From: Spirochaetes bacterium GWB1_27_13
Lineage (GTDB): Bacteria > Spirochaetota > GWE2-31-10 > MWDO01
Reading direction: 5' to 3'
Assembly (NCBI GenBank): GCA_001829125.1
Contig: MIAN01000032.1
Span: forward strand, 1-49,695
Length of the DNA: 49,695 nt
The position numbers and the translations under genes are program-made. This document shows, one piece after another, positions 434 through 49,434 of the stretch. Under the pieces are notes generated by a model, which was not told the origin of the DNA, searched no databases, and worked only from the letters and a program-made list of their open reading frames with translations. Each line of letters opens with the position of its first letter. Position 1 is the stretch's first letter.

Positions 434-723
434 TATAACACAGATAACACTGAGGAAACAAGGGGTAGATACTCCTTGTTTCCTCAGTGTTATAGAAGAA
501 AAATTTAGAAATAACTTAAAATTTTATGATTACTTTAAAAAATATAATGGTATTGAGTTTAAATCGCCAGTGGATAGTTTTAAGATAGAAATAGATAAAT
601 ATAAGTTGGGTTTTTATCTAAATGGGATATTATTGCAATAAAAAGAAGCAAATACAGTCACTGCATATAGTTACAGCATTTAATCTGTGTTAATCTTCTA
701 AAATTTGTGTTAATCCGTGTTAT
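434..723. repeat. TATAACAC-type dispersed repeat region upstream of icd
   Basis: The stretch begins with TATAACACAGATAACAC (434-450) and ends with TAATCCGTGTTAT (about 711-723), so its two ends are inverted relative to each other. The clearest repeat portion is 679-723, which contains three TGTGT/CGTGT units (TAATCTGTGT, TTTGTGT, TAATCCGTGT). The right end lies directly against the GAGGAG ribosome-binding site of the isocitrate dehydrogenase gene. A large palindrome (444-493) sits inside. Whether the whole 290 bp is one element or a short element plus older sequence is uncertain. The GTG-initiated frame at 393-641 crosses the palindrome and is not called as a gene. Confidence 0.55.
444..493. 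repeat. 50-bp near-perfect palindrome
   Basis: Bases 444-467 and 470-493 are inverted repeats with one G/T mismatch and only two bases between them. The outer 20 bp (ATAACACTGAGG... / ...CCTCAGTGTTAT) are perfect. As DNA it could extrude a cruciform; as RNA it would be a very stable hairpin. No T-tract follows, so it does not look like an intrinsic terminator. Its ends carry the same ATAACAC motif as the dispersed repeat family. Confidence 0.85.
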
Positions 724-3468: not shown

Positions 3469-3808
3469 AAAACTTTTCTCCTTTTTAAATTAAATATTTA
3501 ACAAAAATTTTATAATTGTAACTTTTAGTATAAATGAGTTTTATTGATAATCAAATTATCCATTAGGATTATTATCCTAACTTAATATATACTTAAATAT
3601 CTATAAAATCAACTAAATACTAAAATTCTATATTACTTATAATTTGTTTTATATAAATTAATTTGTCACAAATTTAAAAAGTTAAATATAGTTATTGTAT
3701 ATATTTACGCTATTTAATTTGTGCCAATTAGCGAAAATCTTATAAATCAGATTAGAATAATAACTTTAACAATTATCATATCTAAAAAATTATAGAGTTT
3801 CAAATTTA
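3469..3808. other. 340-bp intergenic region with one repeat fragment
   Basis: There is no convincing coding frame. It should hold the promoter of the membrane protein/ferredoxin pair (minus strand) and the 3' end of the epimerase transcript. The only structure seen is the repeat fragment at 3661-3733, which is similar to 28961-29033. Confidence 0.6.
3661..3733 (+). repeat. Dispersed repeat fragment (partner of 28961-29033)
   Basis: These 73 bp align without gaps to 28961-29033. The shared core includes TTTGTCACAAATT and AAATATAGTTATTGTATATA. The outer part here has lost the TAATCTGTGTTATA end that the other copy keeps, so this is a decayed or partial copy. Confidence 0.8.
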
Positions 3809-5411: not shown

Positions 5412-8114
5412 CTAATTTTTACTTGCAGGGATTGAGTAAACATAGATATTTTTGTCAAAACTTCCAACGACCATCTCATAATTTTCGTCTCCATTAAAAT
5501 CTGTAAAAGATGGTTTTGTACTTCCTTTTAATGGAAAACCAGGTAGTAAAATACCTTTACTATCAAAAGCAAAAATATTATTTGTGCCTCCATAAACAAT
5601 AATTTCATCTTTTTTATCTTTGTTCATATCAAAAAGTAAGATTTTGCTTTCTTTTGAGTCCAAATCTTTTATGTATTTTTCAAAAAGTATTCTACCATCG
5701 AGATATAATACAGATAATTTACCATCTTTATCGAGAATAGCGATTTCTTTAAGTTTATCACCTTCAATATTGCCAATTTGAGGTTGATTATAAAAAACAC
5801 CATCAAATTTCATAGGAAAATTGTTAAATTTTGTACCATCAATCTTCCATAAGTTTAAAATACCAGACTGTGTTAAAAATATTATTTCGTTTTCTCCGTT
5901 ATTATCTATATCTATAAATTTTGGTGATCCATAAGATATACCACTTCCTTCTTGTGGCCAGTTTTCAAAAACAGCTCCGTTTTCATCTGTTAAATAAACA
6001 GTGCCAGAAAAACTTTTTGGATATATTGCAAAATAGTCTCCTACAATCGAAGGAGGAGTAAGAAGGGGTGATTTAAATTCAAAATTAAATTCTTTTTTAT
6101 TACCTTCAAAATCAATAAAATACATTTTTCTTTCTGAGTTGTTAAAAAGAACTAAATTATCTTTATAAATTATTGGATAGAAAGAATTATTAAAATTAGT
6201 TTCAATAGGGTAGGGGGCTTCCTCTTTGCCTTCATTATCAAATTTATGAAGAATTCCTTTATCTGTAAAACTAATTATATCAAGTTTACCATTCTTATTA
6301 AAATCAAAAATTAAAGGCGGATTTTCCGAACTTCCCTCAAGTCTTACAGGAAATCCAGTTATAGGAGTATTATTCATATCAGCGACAACGAGTTTATTAT
6401 CTTTTCTTATATAAATTAGCTCTGGTAAGTCAGATTCTAAAATATCTTTTGTTAAAATTTGTGAGTTAATTCCTTCACTAACTAATTTTGGAAATCCAGA
6501 AAACATTCTTGCTTTTGCTTTATTTATTCCACTTGCAGCAAAATTTAACTTTATACTTGAATTTGTTAAATTTATTGCAAGATTACCCTTCTCATAAAGT
6601 TTTATTAAGTCGAAAATTAGTTCCTTTTTGTTGAAAAATGGCGGTTGAGATATGCCAAGATTGAAATATAAAAATATATTAGCCTTTTTCTCAATATTTG
6701 CAGTAATTTCTTTATAAATTTTATCATATACGAGTGTATGGCTAGAATTATATTTATTTACTAAATTTGACAGAGGGCTTGGCTCCATAGAAAAGAAAAT
6801 AAAATCACCAACTACAACATAATAAGGCGTATCAAAACCTTTATAAAAACTATTTATAATAGTAAGAAAAAATTCTGGCATCTTAGTTTTATCGAGTTTA
6901 ACTCCTTCAAAGACAACATTTTCGTCATTATCGAGTAGTATTGAATTAAACATTTTTTTCATAACCCCTTCAAGTTTATTTTTGTCTTTGATTTCAAAAA
7001 ATATAACAGGTGAAGAAGAAACAGAAGAAGTAAAAAAACCAAGCTCATTACCAATCCAACTAAATACAAGCTCATTTATATCAGCTTGAAAAAATAATTT
7101 TGCAGCATCATTTATTTTTTTAATTGTGTCTTCATATTTTCCATTTTGTAGATAAACAAAAAGTTTATAAAATTCTTCAAAAGATTCAAAATTTATATCA
7201 CCATAAATATTCGTATCTTCTGGTAGGTATTTTGCAACTTCCATTTCTTGAGATTTATGATTTAAGAATGCTTTTATTAATTCATCAGTTGTCGAACTAT
7301 TTGTAAAAGTATCAAAAGATATATTTTCATTAGAAATATTAGTTGAAATCGCTGTATATTTTTCAAAATTTAGCTTATTTACTATATTATCTATATCAGA
7401 GAAGTTTTTTAAGAATGTTTTAGTTATTTCTTTAGTATTTATGTAAATTTCTGCTATTCCACCTTTTTTAATTTGATTTCTTATATAAAAAAAATCATCA
7501 CTATTATAAATTCCTGCGTTATCTTTTTTTGTTTTATAAATGTATTCTATATCAGATTGTTTTAAGCCAAAAATTAAAATATTATTTTTAATACTAAAAT
7601 AAAAAACTTGCATATTTGAAAAAAGAGTAAATTTATACAAATTATACCCTTCTTTTTTAATTTCTTCTATCGAAAAGTTGTCTGTTTTTGAAATAAATTT
7701 TGTTATAAATTTAGAACCTCGTAGTAAGAGAGATTTAAATCCAAGGTCAAACAAAAGAATTGGGCTATAATCTTTATTTAAAATAATATCAACTTTCATA
7801 TTTATTAGAGAAATTAAAAGTTTATTTTTAGCATATTTTGAACGTCTTACTTCTTGTAGTGTCTTATATATCTTTTTAAAGTCTTCTGTTGCAATAATTG
7901 TATCAATTGCTCGTAAATCTATTAGATTATCATAAGCTTTTGAAAGAGACTCAATTTTTACATACCCAAGAAAATCTTTAGGGATATATTTTTTTATGTC
8001 TTCTTTTGTAAATAAGTAATATAAAATAGAAATACCTGTTATTAATAAGAGTATAAAAATTGAAATTAGTAAAAATTTGACTAAAGAGCCAAAAAATGAT
8101 TTTTTCTTTTCCAT
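5412..8114 (-). CDS. Membrane-anchored DUF3352-like protein with C-terminal FG-GAP-like propeller repeats
   Basis: The 900-residue protein has a short basic N-terminus and one strong membrane helix (about residues 12-34), then a large extracytoplasmic part. Residues about 40-540 resemble DUF3352 proteins (the IPKDFLGYVKIESLSKAYDNL opening is typical). The last 350 residues form repeats of the FG-GAP/VCBS integrin-like type, each with an acidic turn such as DFNKNGKLDI, DIDNNGENEI, DMNKDKKDEI and DFNGDENYEM, which usually bind calcium in a beta-propeller. A role in surface or periplasmic protein contacts is inferred; no enzymatic motif is seen. The ATG at 8114 has AAGGAAAA upstream, and that site abuts the end of a dispersed repeat. 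Confidence 0.75.
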   Translation of the reverse strand: MEKKKSFFGSLVKFLLISIFILLLITGISILYYLFTKEDIKKYIPKDFLGYVKIESLSKAYDNLIDLRAIDTIIATEDFKKIYKTLQEVRRSKYAKNKLLISLINMKVDIILNKDYSPILLFDLGFKSLLLRGSKFITKFISKTDNFSIEEIKKEGYNLYKFTLFSNMQVFYFSIKNNILIFGLKQSDIEYIYKTKKDNAGIYNSDDFFYIRNQIKKGGIAEIYINTKEITKTFLKNFSDIDNIVNKLNFEKYTAISTNISNENISFDTFTNSSTTDELIKAFLNHKSQEMEVAKYLPEDTNIYGDINFESFEEFYKLFVYLQNGKYEDTIKKINDAAKLFFQADINELVFSWIGNELGFFTSSVSSSPVIFFEIKDKNKLEGVMKKMFNSILLDNDENVVFEGVKLDKTKMPEFFLTIINSFYKGFDTPYYVVVGDFIFFSMEPSPLSNLVNKYNSSHTLVYDKIYKEITANIEKKANIFLYFNLGISQPPFFNKKELIFDLIKLYEKGNLAINLTNSSIKLNFAASGINKAKARMFSGFPKLVSEGINSQILTKDILESDLPELIYIRKDNKLVVADMNNTPITGFPVRLEGSSENPPLIFDFNKNGKLDIISFTDKGILHKFDNEGKEEAPYPIETNFNNSFYPIIYKDNLVLFNNSERKMYFIDFEGNKKEFNFEFKSPLLTPPSIVGDYFAIYPKSFSGTVYLTDENGAVFENWPQEGSGISYGSPKFIDIDNNGENEIIFLTQSGILNLWKIDGTKFNNFPMKFDGVFYNQPQIGNIEGDKLKEIAILDKDGKLSVLYLDGRILFEKYIKDLDSKESKILLFDMNKDKKDEIIVYGGTNNIFAFDSKGILLPGFPLKGSTKPSFTDFNGDENYEMVVGSFDKNIYVYSIPASKN

Positions 8115-8127
8115 AATAAATTTTCCT

Positions 8128-8214
8128 TATAACACATATTAACACAGATTTCGCTGATTTTATATCCAGCTAATCTGTGTTTATCTCTTTTAATCCGTGT
8201 CGATCCGTGTTATA
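8128..8214. repeat. Dispersed repeat, full copy with inverted ends (87 bp)
   Basis: The left end TATAACAC and right end GTGTTATA are inverted. Inner arms ACACAGATTTCGCTG and CAGCTAATCTGTGT also pair, giving a nested fold-back structure. On the minus strand, the left end touches the AAGGA ribosome-binding site of the DUF3352 gene. On the plus strand, the right end lies upstream of the promoter of the gene at 8344. Confidence 0.85.
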
Positions 8215-9929: not shown

Positions 9930-12545
9930 TTACTCATTCACCACTGGAAAAATCAATTTTTGATAGATGTTGTCTCTGTCAATTGTTGGATTTTGTTTTC
10001 CATCGCTTGATTTTGAGACTGCCGATAAAACGAAGCTTTTTAGTTCTTCCATCGTGATTTTACCGTCGCCGTTTGTGTCTGCCATATTTTTTTGGAAAGC
10101 GTTAATTATTTCTTCTGTAAATAAACCATTTTCTAGCCTACTATCTTCGTAAGAAAACTCGCCACCTTTTGATGACGAAAAAACTACAGCTCCACTTCTT
10201 CTTGCTAAGTCATTATAAATAAATCTATCCTTTTGCATAGAATAAAATTTTTTATTAGTAGTAGTTTTATTTTGGTTAGAAGAGATTCGTTTTAAGCTTC
10301 TTGCATTAAGAGTCGTGACTTTTTGTTCATTAGTTAAATTAATGTTTTCATCAGTGTCAAGTTCGCCAGATTCGCAAGTATCCATAAGGAAGAGTTTATT
10401 TCTTGCTTTTGCTTCTTGTAGAATATTTTCTATCAAATCAAAATCTGCTGCTGTTTTTGATAAATTTTTTATATCCGTATCATAGGTTACATAATAGTAA
10501 GTATTTTCTTTGTCATTATCATGAAGTCCATGTCCTGCTATAAATAAAATTAGAGTGTCATCAACTTTTGTATTTTGGACTAATTTTTTTGCATTTATAA
10601 TGTTATCTTTTTTGACATCTTTATCTAAGTAAGCGTAAGTATAGATATTGTTATAAAAATCTTTTTGCTTTGAGAATAATTGTTTTAAATCAGTAACGTC
10701 TTTATTTGCATATTCTAGATCTGTAATATCATCTGATAAATAGTTTGATACTCCAAAACCAATAAAATATAGGTCTCCTTTGACTTCCTTTTTATAATTA
10801 ATTTTTGTTAAGGCTCTAAAAGATTCTGCTCCTTTTTCGTTTGTGCATGTAATTTCAATTTTATTGTCGCCAGAGCCAAGCTCGATTATTTCTTTTATAG
10901 TTTGTGAGTTTCCAGAAGTTTCTTTGCCAAGTATTCCAAAGACAGGAACATCGTTTACAAAAATATTATATAATTTAAGATTAAAGTTATTATCCTTTAA
11001 TTTGAATGTTATTTCGGCTAATTTATCGTTTTGTTTTGCTTCTATTATTTTAACCTCTGGAACTTCCAATTTTTCTGCTAAATTTTCTTCTTTTAAATTA
11101 AATTTCCTGAGTCTTTTCTTAAATTGGTTATAATAATGGTCAATTATATCATTATTTTCAAACCCTATTCTTTTTAAAATAATGTCTGGTCTATTGTATT
11201 TTATTGCAAACTGGTCTACACCAAAAACTTCCATCTCATCGGTTACCATTGCAACAAGTTTTCCACCATACAAAGAGGCATCCCAATATCCATCTGGTGT
11301 AAAACAAAACCATTGTTCTTTTTCAGAAACAAGACTTACCAAATCACCTGTATTTAGATTTATAATATTAACAGTGCCATCCATAGAACCTACAATAACA
11401 TTTTTACAATCATCTGTAAGTTTGATAGAATAAGCTATTGACGACAAAATCGGGTAATTTTTAATTAAATTATCGGTAAAATCAACTGTTTTAATACCAG
11501 GAATGCTTCCACCCTTATTATCTGGTGTATAACTTGCCTCAACGATAAGTTTTTTATCAATACTAAAATCACCAAACCCGCCAAGACTGCGAGATTTATT
11601 TACCAAAAACACTCCTGAAAGATTGCAGACTTTAAAGGTAGAATGTGAAAATAAGCCAATAAGTTTACCTGACGAGTTAAATTTAATAGAAATCACATTT
11701 GGGTCACCTATTATAGTACTAGAACTACCGTCTGAGTAATCCCAAACTTTAATAAGTCCATCAAGCATACTATAACTTATAAAATTGGTTTTATCTGGGC
11801 TAAATATAATTTTAGTTACATATTTACTTGGATCAGTATTATGTAAACCAAATACTTTGATAAATTTCCCATCTAAAGAATACAAGTCTATTCTATTTAA
11901 ATATTCTACCTGTCCTTGTATATTTAGCTTTAATCTTGTGAAAAAATAAATTAAACTATAAACTTCATCAGAATTTGCATTTTCATCGAGGATATAGAGT
12001 TTTTTATCATTATCAAATAAAAAACAGTTTTTTAGAGCCTTAGTTTCTTCTTCTGTATTTGTTTTTGTTAGTAAAGCCTTAAATTTTTTTTCGTCAAACT
12101 CATAAGGAAAAAGTTTTGTTTGTGTAATTGCACTACCTATCAAAATATTTTTATTGTCAGGTGTAAAACTTATTGCATAAAGTTGTTTACTGCCAAAATC
12201 ATTCTTTGGTTTTACAGTTATTACTTTGCCAGTGAGTATATTTATGGTTTTAAAGCTCATTCCATCAGCAAGACCAAGATATTTGTTATCATAAGAAAAA
12301 CAAAAACTACCACTTGCCATATTATTATCATTATTAAAAACTCTAATAAGTTTACCTGTTTTATGCCAAATCCTAACATCATTATCATAGAATGTTGTAG
12401 TGGCAAAATATTCTCCATCATCGCTAAATTCAATTTTTGCAATGCTTCCAGTATTACCACCTTGCAGTACCATTTTTAAGTTTTGAGAATTTAAATTTAA
12501 CATAAAGCTAAATAAAAATAATAGAATTATAATCTTTGTTTTCAT
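9930..12545 (-). CDS. Secreted WD40-caspase (C14) protein with C-terminal EF-hand
   Basis: The 871-residue protein begins with a signal peptide (MKTKIIILLFLFSFMLNLNSQ). Residues about 25-420 are WD40-like repeats (SIAKIEFSDDGEYFATTTFYDNDVRIW; later KIIFSPDKTNFIS...IKVWDYSDG). Residues about 500-590 look like a beta-sandwich linker. Residues about 590-815 are a caspase-like peptidase domain with the dyad His672 (FIAGHGLHD) and Cys724 (LFLMDTCESGEL). Residues 823-834 (DTNGDGKITMEE) are a textbook EF-hand loop. The expected activity is cysteine proteolysis, possibly Ca2+-dependent as in metacaspases, acting outside the cytoplasm. The ATG at 12545 has GGAAGGTG directly after a dispersed-repeat end. 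The target and any partner are unknown. Confidence 0.88.
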   Translation of the reverse strand: MKTKIIILLFLFSFMLNLNSQNLKMVLQGGNTGSIAKIEFSDDGEYFATTTFYDNDVRIWHKTGKLIRVFNNDNNMASGSFCFSYDNKYLGLADGMSFKTINILTGKVITVKPKNDFGSKQLYAISFTPDNKNILIGSAITQTKLFPYEFDEKKFKALLTKTNTEEETKALKNCFLFDNDKKLYILDENANSDEVYSLIYFFTRLKLNIQGQVEYLNRIDLYSLDGKFIKVFGLHNTDPSKYVTKIIFSPDKTNFISYSMLDGLIKVWDYSDGSSSTIIGDPNVISIKFNSSGKLIGLFSHSTFKVCNLSGVFLVNKSRSLGGFGDFSIDKKLIVEASYTPDNKGGSIPGIKTVDFTDNLIKNYPILSSIAYSIKLTDDCKNVIVGSMDGTVNIINLNTGDLVSLVSEKEQWFCFTPDGYWDASLYGGKLVAMVTDEMEVFGVDQFAIKYNRPDIILKRIGFENNDIIDHYYNQFKKRLRKFNLKEENLAEKLEVPEVKIIEAKQNDKLAEITFKLKDNNFNLKLYNIFVNDVPVFGILGKETSGNSQTIKEIIELGSGDNKIEITCTNEKGAESFRALTKINYKKEVKGDLYFIGFGVSNYLSDDITDLEYANKDVTDLKQLFSKQKDFYNNIYTYAYLDKDVKKDNIINAKKLVQNTKVDDTLILFIAGHGLHDNDKENTYYYVTYDTDIKNLSKTAADFDLIENILQEAKARNKLFLMDTCESGELDTDENINLTNEQKVTTLNARSLKRISSNQNKTTTNKKFYSMQKDRFIYNDLARRSGAVVFSSSKGGEFSYEDSRLENGLFTEEIINAFQKNMADTNGDGKITMEELKSFVLSAVSKSSDGKQNPTIDRDNIYQKLIFPVVNE

Positions 12546-12560
12546 AAATATTCACCTTCC

Positions 12561-12615
12561 TATAACACGGATTTTCAGAGATTAAAACAAATTGACACAG
12601 ATTACGCTGGTTTTA
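12561..12615 (-). repeat. Dispersed repeat fragment upstream of the caspase gene
   Basis: On the minus strand it ends in AATCCGTGTTATA, immediately followed by the GGAAGG ribosome-binding site of the caspase gene. It also contains the ACACAGATTACGCTG module seen at 8143-8157. It is fused on the other side to the Rpn relic at 12702. Confidence 0.8.
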
Positions 12616-12702
12616 AATTTATCAAACATCTTAATTATTTCTAATAATGATTTGTATTCTTTATCATATATTGTTATGTATGTTAGTTAAATCTTTTTTC
12701 AT
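12600..12702 (-). pseudogene. Relic of an Rpn-type (PD-(D/E)XK) nuclease gene, 5' end only
   Basis: An ATG at 12702 opens MKKDLTNIHNNI and then meets a stop. One base out of frame, the sequence continues YDKEYKSLLEIIKMFDKFK, which fits the N-terminus of the recombination-promoting nuclease (Rpn/PDDEXK_2) family. It then runs into the dispersed repeat and stops. The start resembles that of the gene at 18887 (MKKEVINIHNNFF), and the promoters are almost identical. There is a frameshift, and nothing of the catalytic domain remains. Confidence 0.6.
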
Positions 12703-12708
12703 ATAAAA

Positions 12709-12737
12709 AATATAACTAAAATTTAGGGATTTGTCAA
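12709..12737 (-). promoter_or_regulatory. Sigma70-like promoter of the Rpn relic (duplicate of 18852-18880)
   Basis: On the minus strand: TTGACA (12737-12732), a 17-bp spacer and TATATT (12714-12709), with the ATG only six bases further. The segment matches the promoter at 18852 through most of its length, including ATTTT-GTTATATTTTTTATATG. Confidence 0.7.
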
Positions 12738-12761
12738 AAAGATTTTTTAACTCATCCATTT

Positions 12762-18651: not shown

Positions 18652-18851
18652 AATATTAAAATTATATAATAAAAATGAAAAAAAGTAATTAGTTATATGA
18701 AAAATATTTGAAAATTTTAAAAAAATTACTCTTAACAAAAATAATGAAAAATCATCTACAAGAAGAATTATTCAACAGTTTAAAATCAAAAGATTGGTTT
18801 CTATCCCAAATATTTAAAATTACATCCCTCTTTTAATCAACTAAAATCTCT

Positions 18852-18880
18852 TTGACAAACTATGAAATTTTGGTTATATT
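18852..18880 (+). promoter_or_regulatory. Strong sigma70-like promoter of the Rpn-derived gene
   Basis: TTGACA (18852-18857), a 17-bp spacer and TATATT (18875-18880) lie six bases before the ATG at 18887. The expected transcription start falls on or next to the A of the start codon, so the message should be leaderless. No ribosome-binding site is present. It is nearly identical to the promoter at 12709-12737 (minus strand). Confidence 0.8.
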
Positions 18881-18886
18881 TTTTAT

Positions 18887-19255
18887 ATGAAAAAAGAAGT
18901 GATAAATATACATAACAATTTTTTTCTGCAACTCTTATCAAATAAACAAAACGCAATTGATTTTCTAAAGATTAGTCTATCAAATCAAATAACAAAAGAA
19001 TTATTTAGTGAAACTAAAGAGGAGGCAAGTATGGTAACATTTCTTGATGCAATTAAAATAGAAGGTAAAATAGAAGGTAAAATAGAAGAAAAACAAAAAA
19101 CTTTAATCCGTCAATTATCAAAAAAATTTGGGGTAATAACGGAAGATGAAAAGCAATTTATTAAAGAATGTTCTGATGGAGAGAAACTTGATAATGCTTT
19201 AGATGAAATAATTTTTGCTGATAGTAAACATAAAGTTTTAGACTGGTTAAAATAA
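18887..19255 (+). CDS. Internally deleted Rpn-family nuclease with DUF4351 tail
   Basis: The 122-residue frame begins with MKKEVINIHNNFFLQLLSN and NAIDFLK, the typical N-terminus of Rpn/PDDEXK_2 nucleases (recombination-promoting, transposase-like). It then jumps straight to a linker (IEGKIEGKIEEKQK) and a DUF4351-type tail (LIRQLSKKFG...LDWLK). Full-length members have roughly 200 more residues carrying the PD-(D/E)XK catalytic core, and that part is missing. The frame is intact, so a short protein may still be made, but nuclease activity is not expected. Whether it is a decaying gene or a retained helical domain cannot be decided here. Confidence 0.7.
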   Translation: MKKEVINIHNNFFLQLLSNKQNAIDFLKISLSNQITKELFSETKEEASMVTFLDAIKIEGKIEGKIEEKQKTLIRQLSKKFGVITEDEKQFIKECSDGEKLDNALDEIIFADSKHKVLDWLK

Positions 19256-23611: not shown

Positions 23612-23658
23612 GGTTAATTATAACAAATACTAATCAGATTGTCACTGATTACATACAA

Positions 23659-23773: not shown

Positions 23774-23827
23774 AAAAACTATATCAAAGTCTGTCCCAGA
23801 GGGACAGTCCTTGATATGGTTTTTTGC
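23774..23827 (+). repeat. Long GC-containing hairpin
   Basis: ATATCAA / TTGATAT and CTGTCCC / GGGACAG form two stacked stems separated by a small internal loop, with an AGA apical loop. The outer AAAAACT pairs partly with GGTTTTTT. The T-run on the right arm could make it a second terminator. The GC-rich core stands out against the AT-rich surroundings. Confidence 0.6.
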
Positions 23828-23925
23828 AAAGAGTATTATATTGTGTCTTCATAGTTTTAACTAATCTTAATTATCGCTAAAATCATTTAATAGTTTCTAT
23901 ATAATTAATCTGTGTAATAAAAAAT

Positions 23926-28683: not shown

Positions 28684-28960
28684 TGTTTTTCTTTCAATTT
28701 TTGTCAATATTCTACTATACTGCTACAAAGCATAATCTGTTTAATTCGCTTTAATCTAAAACTAATTTCTGTTATAACTTTTTAACTAATTAAAGTCAAT
28801 ATGCTAGATTGTATAGAATTTTATCTGAGAGGCAATTTTATTTTGTTACAAATTAATAATTTAAAACTTTATTTTTAATCTCACTTGATTTTTTTTTATC
28901 ATTTTAGTACAATAAATTTTGTATTAGATTCTAACTTTTTATCTATATCAGAAAGTCTTG

Positions 28961-29047
28961 GTTTGTCACAAATTCTAGAAGTAAAATATAGTTATTGTAT
29001 ATATTTACACGATTCAATCAGTAACAATTCGATTAATCTGTGTTATA
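28961..29047 (+). repeat. Dispersed repeat, right half, in the 5' region of the HD-GYP gene
   Basis: It aligns without gaps to 3661-3733 and additionally keeps the family end TAATCTGTGTTATA (29034-29047). The ribosome-binding site GGAG of the next gene begins 11 bp later, so the repeat forms most of the probable upstream region of that operon. Confidence 0.8.
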
Positions 29048-31430: not shown

Positions 31431-31472
31431 TTAAAAAATTTAAAAAAATTATATAAAAAATTTTTATTTTGT

Positions 31473-31583
31473 TAGAAATAATAAATCTAATTACTTTAAT
31501 ATCAAGTAATTAGTCGGTGTTAATCTGTGGCTTGCACTCGCTTGACGGGTGAATCTCTGACAATCTGATTAATCCGTGTTATA
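31473..31583 (+). repeat. Dispersed repeat, long copy
   Basis: It contains TTAATCTGTGGCTTGCACTCG, then CGGGTGAATCTCTGACAATCTGATTAATCCGTGTTATA, and so matches 48992-49052 over about 60 bp. The left boundary is approximate. The right end is TAATCCGTGTTATA (31570-31583). Confidence 0.8.
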
Positions 31584-31642: not shown

Positions 31643-31690
31643 TATAACACAGATTATAACAAATTGAGATTTTGTATAATCTGTGTTATA
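31643..31690. repeat. Dispersed repeat, minimal 48-bp palindromic copy
   Basis: TATAACACAGATTATA (31643-31658) and TATAATCTGTGTTATA (31675-31690) are perfect 16-bp inverted repeats separated by 16 bp. It appears to consist of just the two element ends. On the plus strand the right end reads TGTTATAAT, which fits an extended -10 promoter consensus, 40 bp before the ATG at 31731. Confidence 0.85.
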
Positions 31691-39133: not shown

Positions 39134-39156
39134 TAATCAGTATAATCTGTATCATT
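39134..39156 (+). repeat. Degenerate dispersed repeat end before the DnaJ-like gene
   Basis: AATCAGTATAATCTGTATCAT resembles the family end AATCTGATTAATCTGTGTTAT and is followed directly by the AGGA ribosome-binding site of the gene at 39170. The position fits the family rule, but the match is weak. Confidence 0.4.
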
Positions 39157-46394: not shown

Positions 46395-46436
46395 AAATTA
46401 TTCAATTTTACACCCGAACATTTCTGATAATATGAA

Positions 46437-46531
46437 GAACACGAAGAAATTCTAATAAAAAATGCTATATTTTAACTTAATTTTAGCTTTCTAATGGAAT
46501 GCTAATTTAAACTTGCATTATCTCCGTGTTC
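46437..46531. repeat. Inverted GAACACGRAGA repeat
   Basis: GAACACGAAGA (46437-46447) and TCTCCGTGTTC (46521-46531) are inverted with one mismatch and enclose about 73 bp without a gene. This resembles the TATAACACRG family in style (CGTGTT core) but has its own sequence. Confidence 0.5.
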
Positions 46532-48915: not shown

Positions 48916-49052
48916 TATAACACGGATTATATAGAAATGTTTTGAGTTAGTCAGAAATCACAAATATTAATATAAAGTAATATTCAATTTTAATCTGTGG
49001 CTTATACTCGCTTACGGGTGAATCCGTAACAATCTGATTAATCTGTGTTATA
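48916..49052. repeat. Dispersed repeat, best full-length copy (137 bp)
   Basis: The terminal inverted repeats are TATAACACGGATTA (48916-48929) and TAATCTGTGTTATA (49039-49052), 14 bp with one mismatch. The interior aligns on its left with 49301-49370 (GAAATGTTT...GTCA.AAATCACAAA) and on its right with 31513-31583 (AATCTGTGGCTT...CTCGCTT..CGGGTGAATC). The copy has no coding capacity. It lies between recQ and an Rpn relic. Confidence 0.85.
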
Positions 49053-49264: not shown

Positions 49265-49300
49265 TCAAACATTTTATTTAGGCAAATTATCTATACTGAA

Positions 49301-49434
49301 ATGTTTCAGGTTTGTCAAAAATCACAAAATTGCATAACTACTATAATATTAAGTAATTATACGATTTTAATCTGTATAATCTGAGAAAATCTGTGTCAAT
49401 TTGTGTTTTATAATCTGTGCTAATCCGTGTTATA
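49301..49434 (-). repeat. Dispersed repeat copy overlapping a gene end
   Basis: The interior matches 48936-48998 (GAAATGTTT...GTCAAAAATCACAAA...TTTTAATCTGT). The outer end TAATCCGTGTTATA (49421-49434) is joined to the end of the coding sequence at 49420. The left boundary is approximate. Confidence 0.75.

Follow-up and report, generated by a model that had tools for sequence, protein, structure and literature searches.

Positions 48916 to 49052 of a contig of Spirochaetes bacterium GWB1_27_13 hold a short intergenic repeat, which raises two questions: what kind of element it is, and why its ends so often lie against ribosome-binding sites. The initial annotation, made from the 49,695-nucleotide contig (the window), read it as one of about eleven copies of a dispersed, MITE-like family that may supply 5′ leaders or outward promoters. 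A very-high-copy repeat with promoter-like ends at gene starts could rewire expression genome wide, as Correia elements do in Neisseria. Here, we report the copies and types of this family, their placement relative to genes, and their relatives in other genomes.

Sequence data

The window is contig 32 of an assembly of 4.40 Mb in 273 contigs, 87% complete; its icd has its nearest named relative in Spirochaetes bacterium GWE1_32_154 (protein 83% identical). Several contigs end at or beside a repeat copy (C2, 16163 to 16179; C190, 33265 to 33377; C46, 22676 to 22769). Because contigs break at repeats, the family is probably larger than counted in this assembly, from which a coding copy may have dropped out. 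Position statistics cover 1.65 of the 4.40 Mb, a sample picked in part for contigs with matches, so that densities are biased upward while gene-relative positions should not be biased. Start codons in the position tests were set by a simple Shine-Dalgarno rule.

Copies in the window and in the genome

A genome-wide count, proposed with the initial annotation as a check, put both the family and its bias toward start codons far beyond chance: 533 ends match TATAACACRGATTA when up to one mismatch is allowed, whereas the reversed pattern gives 10. A 12-bp core is present in 353 exact copies in this genome, in none in eight same-order genomes searched, and in 0 to 3 in the other phylum genomes of the same set; no full copy of the type I consensus (see below) was found among 40 relatives searched. 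At unrelated loci, the repeats stand as discrete, sharply bounded units, and the family is short, high-copy, non-coding, and dispersed, as MITEs are. A literature search by repeat sequence returned matches in unrelated papers only.

Within the window, TATAACACRGATTA (at most two mismatches) matched 19 times against 2.0 ± 1.5 in shuffles, which bears out dispersed copies with shared ends. Eight family members were returned by profile HMMs (Table 1), the unit at 31643 to 31690 is an inverted repeat, and the copy placed at 23619 consists of fragments; two others were rejected. The one at 39134 was too weak and was returned by neither HMM, and the end at 434 is part of another long hairpin at about 433 to 495 (ACACTGAGGAAACAAGG...CCTTGTTTCCTCAGTGTTATA), which has only its TATAACAC start in common with the family. 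Gene identities were supported for icd, the response-regulator c-di-GMP phosphodiesterase (HD-GYP type), the DUF3352 gene, and the caspase gene. The junctions with Shine-Dalgarno sequences noted earlier at icd, the DUF3352 gene (8128), and the caspase gene (12561) are all present, as is TGTTATAAT, formed by the right end at 31690 and its flank and noted earlier as an extended −10 pattern. The gap before the HD-GYP gene, given as 11 bp, is also there, but the unit at 28949 to 29047 was measured to end about 10 nt ahead of GGAG and 19 nt upstream of the ATG.

Table 1. Family copies, fragments, and end motifs in the window, with the spans returned by profile HMMs.
Feature	Position	Strand	HMM span	Details
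Truncated type I unit with extra phased units	638..723	+	638-723	Right end TGTTATG joins AGGAG of icd (735-1943); upstream junction is TAATCCGTGTTATG, then AGGAG
Type I internal fragment without terminal TGTTATA	3660..3750	+	3660-3750	
Type II unit	8128..8214	.	8140-8214	8128 end adjoins Shine-Dalgarno of DUF3352 gene (5412-8114, minus strand)
Type II arm	12561..12614	+	12561-12614	Outer end 12561 adjoins GGAAGG of caspase-domain gene (9930-12545, minus strand)
Two decayed end fragments	23615-23650, 23906-23919	.		GTCTGTCCC/GGGACAG hairpin between
Type I unit before HD-GYP-type gene	28949..29047	+	28949-29047	GTAACA 29021-29026, 17 bp, TATATT
Type I unit, long subtype	31455..31583	+	31455-31583	Right end CTGACA 31557-31562, 17 bp, TATA
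Minimal type II unit, 48-bp hairpin	31643..31690	.		End-to-end inverted repeat, TATAACACAGATTA at each end
Extra TATAACACGGAT left of type I body	48916..48927	+		Common end motif, outside the alignable type I unit
Type I unit (copy named in the initial annotation)	48928..49052	+	48929-49052	Right end at 49052
Right −35-like GTAACA of the 48928-49052 copy	49026-49031			17-bp gap to the terminal TATA (49049-49052)
Type I unit, right end extended by AATCYGTG units	49292..49434	+	49293-49407	Left end read outward: TTGACA (49318-49313), 17 bp, TATA (49295-49292)

The copies fall into two linked types with a common terminal sequence, AATCYGTGTTATA. Type I, asymmetric and about 116 to 136 bp long, has a 116-bp HMM consensus (TATACtaAAAaGTTTTtggTTTGTCAaAAAT...AATCTGTGTtAATCtGTGAcAATCTGAtTAATCTGTGTTATA) and a subtype in which an insert of about 20 bp brings the length to about 136 bp. 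Its left end is TATACYNAAAWGTTTT, AATCYGTGTTATA stands at its right end only, and as inverted repeats the two are imperfect (TATAC.../...TGTTATA). Type II is hairpin-like and has terminal inverted repeats, with inverted arms of phased 10-bp CACRGATTNN units (layout, TATAACACRGATTNNCACRGATT...GACACAGATTA...TAATCTGTGTTATA); CACRGATT units on the same strand are spaced 10, 19 to 20, or 29 to 30 bp apart. The inverted ends of about 14 bp earlier ascribed to full copies thus describe the hairpin type (31643 to 31690 and 8128 to 8214) but not type I and so not most of the longer copies, which are asymmetric. Hairpin folding gave z values of −3.1, −8.3, and −7.5 for three type II copies and was not outstanding for one type I copy (z = −1.45). 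Compensatory changes were sought in the type I alignment and none were seen, Rfam covariance models gave no match in the window, and a structured RNA was rejected on these two grounds.

Placement relative to genes

In a first sample of 0.88 Mb, 24 of 158 ends lay inside open reading frames of at least 80 codons, which make up 86% of the sequence. An end was held by 35% of divergent, 17% of tandem, and 8% of convergent gaps (1.65 Mb). The plot of distance to start codons, also proposed earlier, showed non-random placement, with 45 ends at most 30 nt upstream of a start codon against 13.1 ± 3.5 by random placement in the same gaps. Because the element itself lengthens the gap that it occupies, this test was rerun with the element length removed: divergent gaps had 17 ends at most 20 nt from a start (3.6 expected), and tandem gaps, within the same distance, had 13 ends without a −35 (6.9 expected) and a single end with one (3.9 expected). 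Adjacency of ends to starts is therefore genuine yet non-uniform. In tandem gaps, ends faced starts and stops at 59:44 (P = 0.17, no significant preference), and nine ends lay at most 5 nt from a stop codon, so a neutral alternative, in which ends simply mark the edge of a permitted zone, keeps weight.

Promoter-like ends and leader junctions

Upstream regions of 499 repeat-free genes carry a sharp native signature, TTGACA-N17-TATAAT. Native −35/−10 pairs numbered 109 at a spacing of 17, against 14 to 32 at other spacings; within genes or in shuffles, spacing 17 gave 14 pairs. Type I ends carry TTGACA/GTGACA-N17-TATA pointing outward on both sides, with the spacing of native promoters: the right end has GTGACA-N17-TATA with a TGT extended element, and the left end has TTGACA or CTGACA-N17-TATA. 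A −35 with at most one mismatch accompanies 49% of type I ends, on either side, against 5.6% of other intergenic TATA sequences, a difference whose significance is partly post hoc, the promoter reading having been noticed in the consensus before it was tested on the copies. Positions five and six of the −10 box are supplied by the flank; a T stands at the sixth in just 25% of right and 44% of left ends, so many copies would be weak promoters.

Ends without a −35 behave differently. From TATA to start, native promoters measure 47 nt at the median and 24 nt at the 5th percentile, whereas these ends peak 9 to 15 nt from the start codon; in 19 of the 35 that lie at most 40 nt from a start, the Shine-Dalgarno sequence begins 0 to 2 nt past the TATA. 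Ends joined directly to a Shine-Dalgarno sequence are mostly of type II and lack a −35. At 9 to 15 nt from the start, with native distances of at least 24 nt (5th percentile), such ends occupy leader or junction positions and cannot act as ordinary promoters. A leader role and a promoter role must therefore be kept apart, and the single idea that the family supplies one or the other splits in two. Outward promoters may be supplied by type I ends, as their geometry suggests, with the reservation that the last −10 base is left to the flank. Leaders may be supplied by the mostly type II ends at junction positions, which are too near the start for an ordinary promoter.

Related units in other genomes and the search for a mobilizer

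The tandem unit CACRGATTNNCACRGATT occurs patchily in 27 of 393 phylum genomes, with zero control matches. It was counted 111 times in this genome, 58 in G347, 32 in G273, and 11 in G026; within the 393-genome set, none was found in other genomes of this family and order. Genomes that bear it hold discrete units with inverted arms, such as ATCCACAGATTTACACAGATTGTCACAGATT...AATCTGTGTATATCTGTGCTAATCTGTGGAT. Many similar units (GACACAGATTTACACRGATTTACGCGGATTT...ATCTGTGTTAATCTGCGTTAATCNGTGTC) lie in the Methanosarcinales archaeon CSMAG_2476 (L324 to L336), in which no GxxExxY gene was detected; a plasmid DNA search with the archaeal unit gave no match. In viral contigs, the tripled unit was found in 14 stretches, with no gene between paired arms.

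In many unit-bearing bacteria, phased inverted arms enclose a GxxExxY gene (TIGR04256; PF13366, PD-(D/E)XK). In G347, the arms of the GxxExxY gene and those of gene-less units are of one kind. The median arm inversion score was 32.5 for 20 GxxExxY genes and 17 for mismatched pairs, whose 95th percentile was exceeded by 12 of the 20 genes. Plasmid records of Bacteroides finegoldii and Bernardetia have the enclosed layout, built of another unit (CACAGAG). One 11-bp inverted unit is seen in a Treponema saccharophilum record, and the remaining records were not clear. Some genomes have a GxxExxY gene without a CACRGATT-type unit, in a co-occurrence comparison of genomes that were hand-picked rather than random. 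We found no description of the phased-arm GxxExxY layout in the literature searched, which hardly mentions the GxxExxY family. GxxExxY genes were also seen squeezed in between housekeeping genes that run in the same direction, with spacers of a few to tens of bases on either side; they lie between fabD and fabG on a Sphingomonas parapaucimobilis plasmid (L350) and between radA and the gene of a FAD-dependent protein on the B. finegoldii plasmid (L347).

In a Treponema-like genus, the orthologous gap before a purN-like gene (name read from flanks) contains an intact element in G296, one that lacks 157 internal bp between 11-bp direct repeats in G300, a shortened relative with CACAGATT arms in G448, and no insert in G458 and G231. 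Intact, deleted, and empty states thus reveal internal deletion of a GxxExxY-type element at a defined locus. In genus g52 (L299 to L323), this gap holds small repeats that are unrelated from species to species (hairpins and TAGGTGATAGGTTC arrays), in the manner of an insertion hotspot.

For the genome under study, the best match to a GxxExxY gene scored 21.4 bits, below the cut-off of 35, and the IS630 DDE_3 search returned one degraded fragment without matching ends. The TIGR02436 four-helix-bundle partner had no match here, in a search that was silent in every control genome too. Coding elements between family ends were considered and dropped, as permissive end pairs enclosed ordinary genes or unmatched open reading frames. 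Joined flanks, searched within the genome for empty sites, matched among repeats only, with no clean empty site; a target-site duplication is not readable, because the palindromic TATA ends would hide a TA duplication. The family's abundance and dispersal, its conserved ends, its bias toward intergenic DNA, and the lack of it in relatives support the non-autonomous, MITE-like reading of the initial annotation; the transposase with matching ends that should go with it was not found in this 87%-complete assembly, which breaks at repeats. With no GxxExxY gene above the cut-off here or detected in the archaeon, and with the gene present elsewhere without the unit, we infer the link between the family and GxxExxY from architecture.

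Interpretation

In our assessment, the family is probably a genome-specific, highly amplified, non-autonomous element of the MITE kind, with two types, of which type I has promoter-like ends and type II would derive from a GxxExxY-type element.

An ordinary MITE of a DDE transposase (IS630 driven, for instance, with a TA target) might instead be neutral clutter, its proximity to starts reflecting tolerated sites and its promoter-like ends being a by-product of AT richness. Terminal TATA would suit a TA-duplicating transposase, the degraded IS630-like fragment is at hand, the nine ends beside stop codons look as if copies fill a permitted zone, and the final −10 base is not enriched. We nevertheless regard this as rather unlikely, given that the excess at starts survives correction for element length (in divergent gaps, 17 ends where 3.6 were expected), that divergent gaps are favored over convergent ones (35% against 8%), and that the exact 17-bp spacing, matched −35 included, greatly exceeds background at both ends.

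Readings that dispense with an ordinary MITE fare worse. Whole sequences of 116 to 136 bp, extending beyond the boxes, are conserved across unrelated loci, relatives lack the family, and where similar units occur in other genomes they are discrete, all of which makes it very improbable that the repeats are non-mobile, whether as dispersed regulator binding-site arrays (helically phased CACRGATT boxes) or as structured 5′ leader RNA; the latter is further disfavored by the lack of compensatory pairs in type I and of Rfam matches in the window. Such a reading would draw on the unit spacing of about 10 bp (one DNA turn), on the long hairpins that type II transcripts would form (z of −3 to −8), and on the preference for upstream regions. 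REPs are short imperfect palindromes. REP-type repeats moved by a RAYT (IS200-like) transposase likewise come as hundreds of short, intergenic, hairpin-forming copies, and a different, REP-like hairpin (GGTCTGTCCC) does exist in this genome; arm architecture and length differ, however, since type I is asymmetric, 116 to 136 bp long, and without a conserved hairpin, while the arms of type II are phased repeats unlike REP palindromes, and we give this origin hardly any credence.

Under the favored reading of an amplified MITE-kind element in two types, type II would be a gene-less derivative of a GxxExxY-type element whose mobilizing protein lies outside this assembly. Each type I end would provide a −35 hexamer, an exact 17-bp spacer, and the TATA of a sigma-70-type −10, pointing outward, so that a copy upstream of a gene could become a promoter once the flank adds the last two −10 bases, as with Correia elements in Neisseria. 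Copies would survive outside coding DNA only and be retained mostly upstream of genes; often reaching the Shine-Dalgarno sequence, they would be incorporated into the gene's 5′ region.

Correia repeat enclosed elements (CREE/nemis) of Neisseria are described as small, high-copy, and intergenic, often just upstream of genes, with TATA termini that can create a promoter at one or both ends (PMC2649163; PMC10969869). The family resembles them in size, copy number, placement, and TATA ends, and their outward sigma-70 promoter geometry is matched, as far as sequence can indicate, in about half of type I copies; kinship in sequence is not claimed, and what sets the present family apart is its 10-bp phased arms and its asymmetric type I. 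RUP, BOX (pneumococcus), and ERIC are likewise dispersed, intergenic, non-autonomous repeats of about 100 to 130 bp (PMC3049150), but their sequences differ. The GxxExxY phased-arm elements of Spirochaetota and Bacteroidota have arms built like those of type II, in part the same CACRGATT unit, and gene-less units alongside, as here; this genome differs in having no such gene above the cut-off and in its ends, which are TATAACAC rather than CCACAG. Since no GxxExxY coding copy above the cut-off was found here, only the architecture is common and the family is not filed as a member of that group. We file it as MITE-like and as apparently working like Correia elements, not as a member of the Correia family, with a candidate link to a nuclease-bearing class of elements.

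Unrelated bacteria and an archaeon have arms of the same phased build, which in bacteria enclose a nuclease gene family. We raise tentatively, as a rather doubtful extension, that these repeats may belong to an undescribed cross-domain class of minimal mobile elements, which have inverted arrays of phased units of about 10 bp as ends, whose sole gene, if any, encodes a GxxExxY PD-(D/E)XK nuclease and not a transposase, and whose gene-less derivatives reach hundreds of copies, here with two outward promoters and at ribosome-binding sites. If GxxExxY proteins do move elements, this would be a distinct mobilization mechanism and a function for a common uncharacterized protein.

Other repeats

A second short hairpin family, REP-like in look, has arms GGTCTGTCCC...GGGACAGACC and lies inside some copies of the present family. 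It occurs genome wide (e.g., at about 23790 to 23820 of the window and 15843 to 16084 of L039); 0.88 Mb contained 23 exact 10-mers, where about 0.1 would be expected. The window also holds a pair of 77-nt inverted repeats (12670 to 12746 and 18843 to 18919; 83% complementary) that both HMMs place outside the family. Other phased-repeat fragments, made of CACGAAG units (e.g., CCACGAAATTCACGAAGAATG), were seen at 46416 to 46455 of the window and 745 to 770 of L180; units of this type also border a GxxExxY gene in G003, a genome of the same family.
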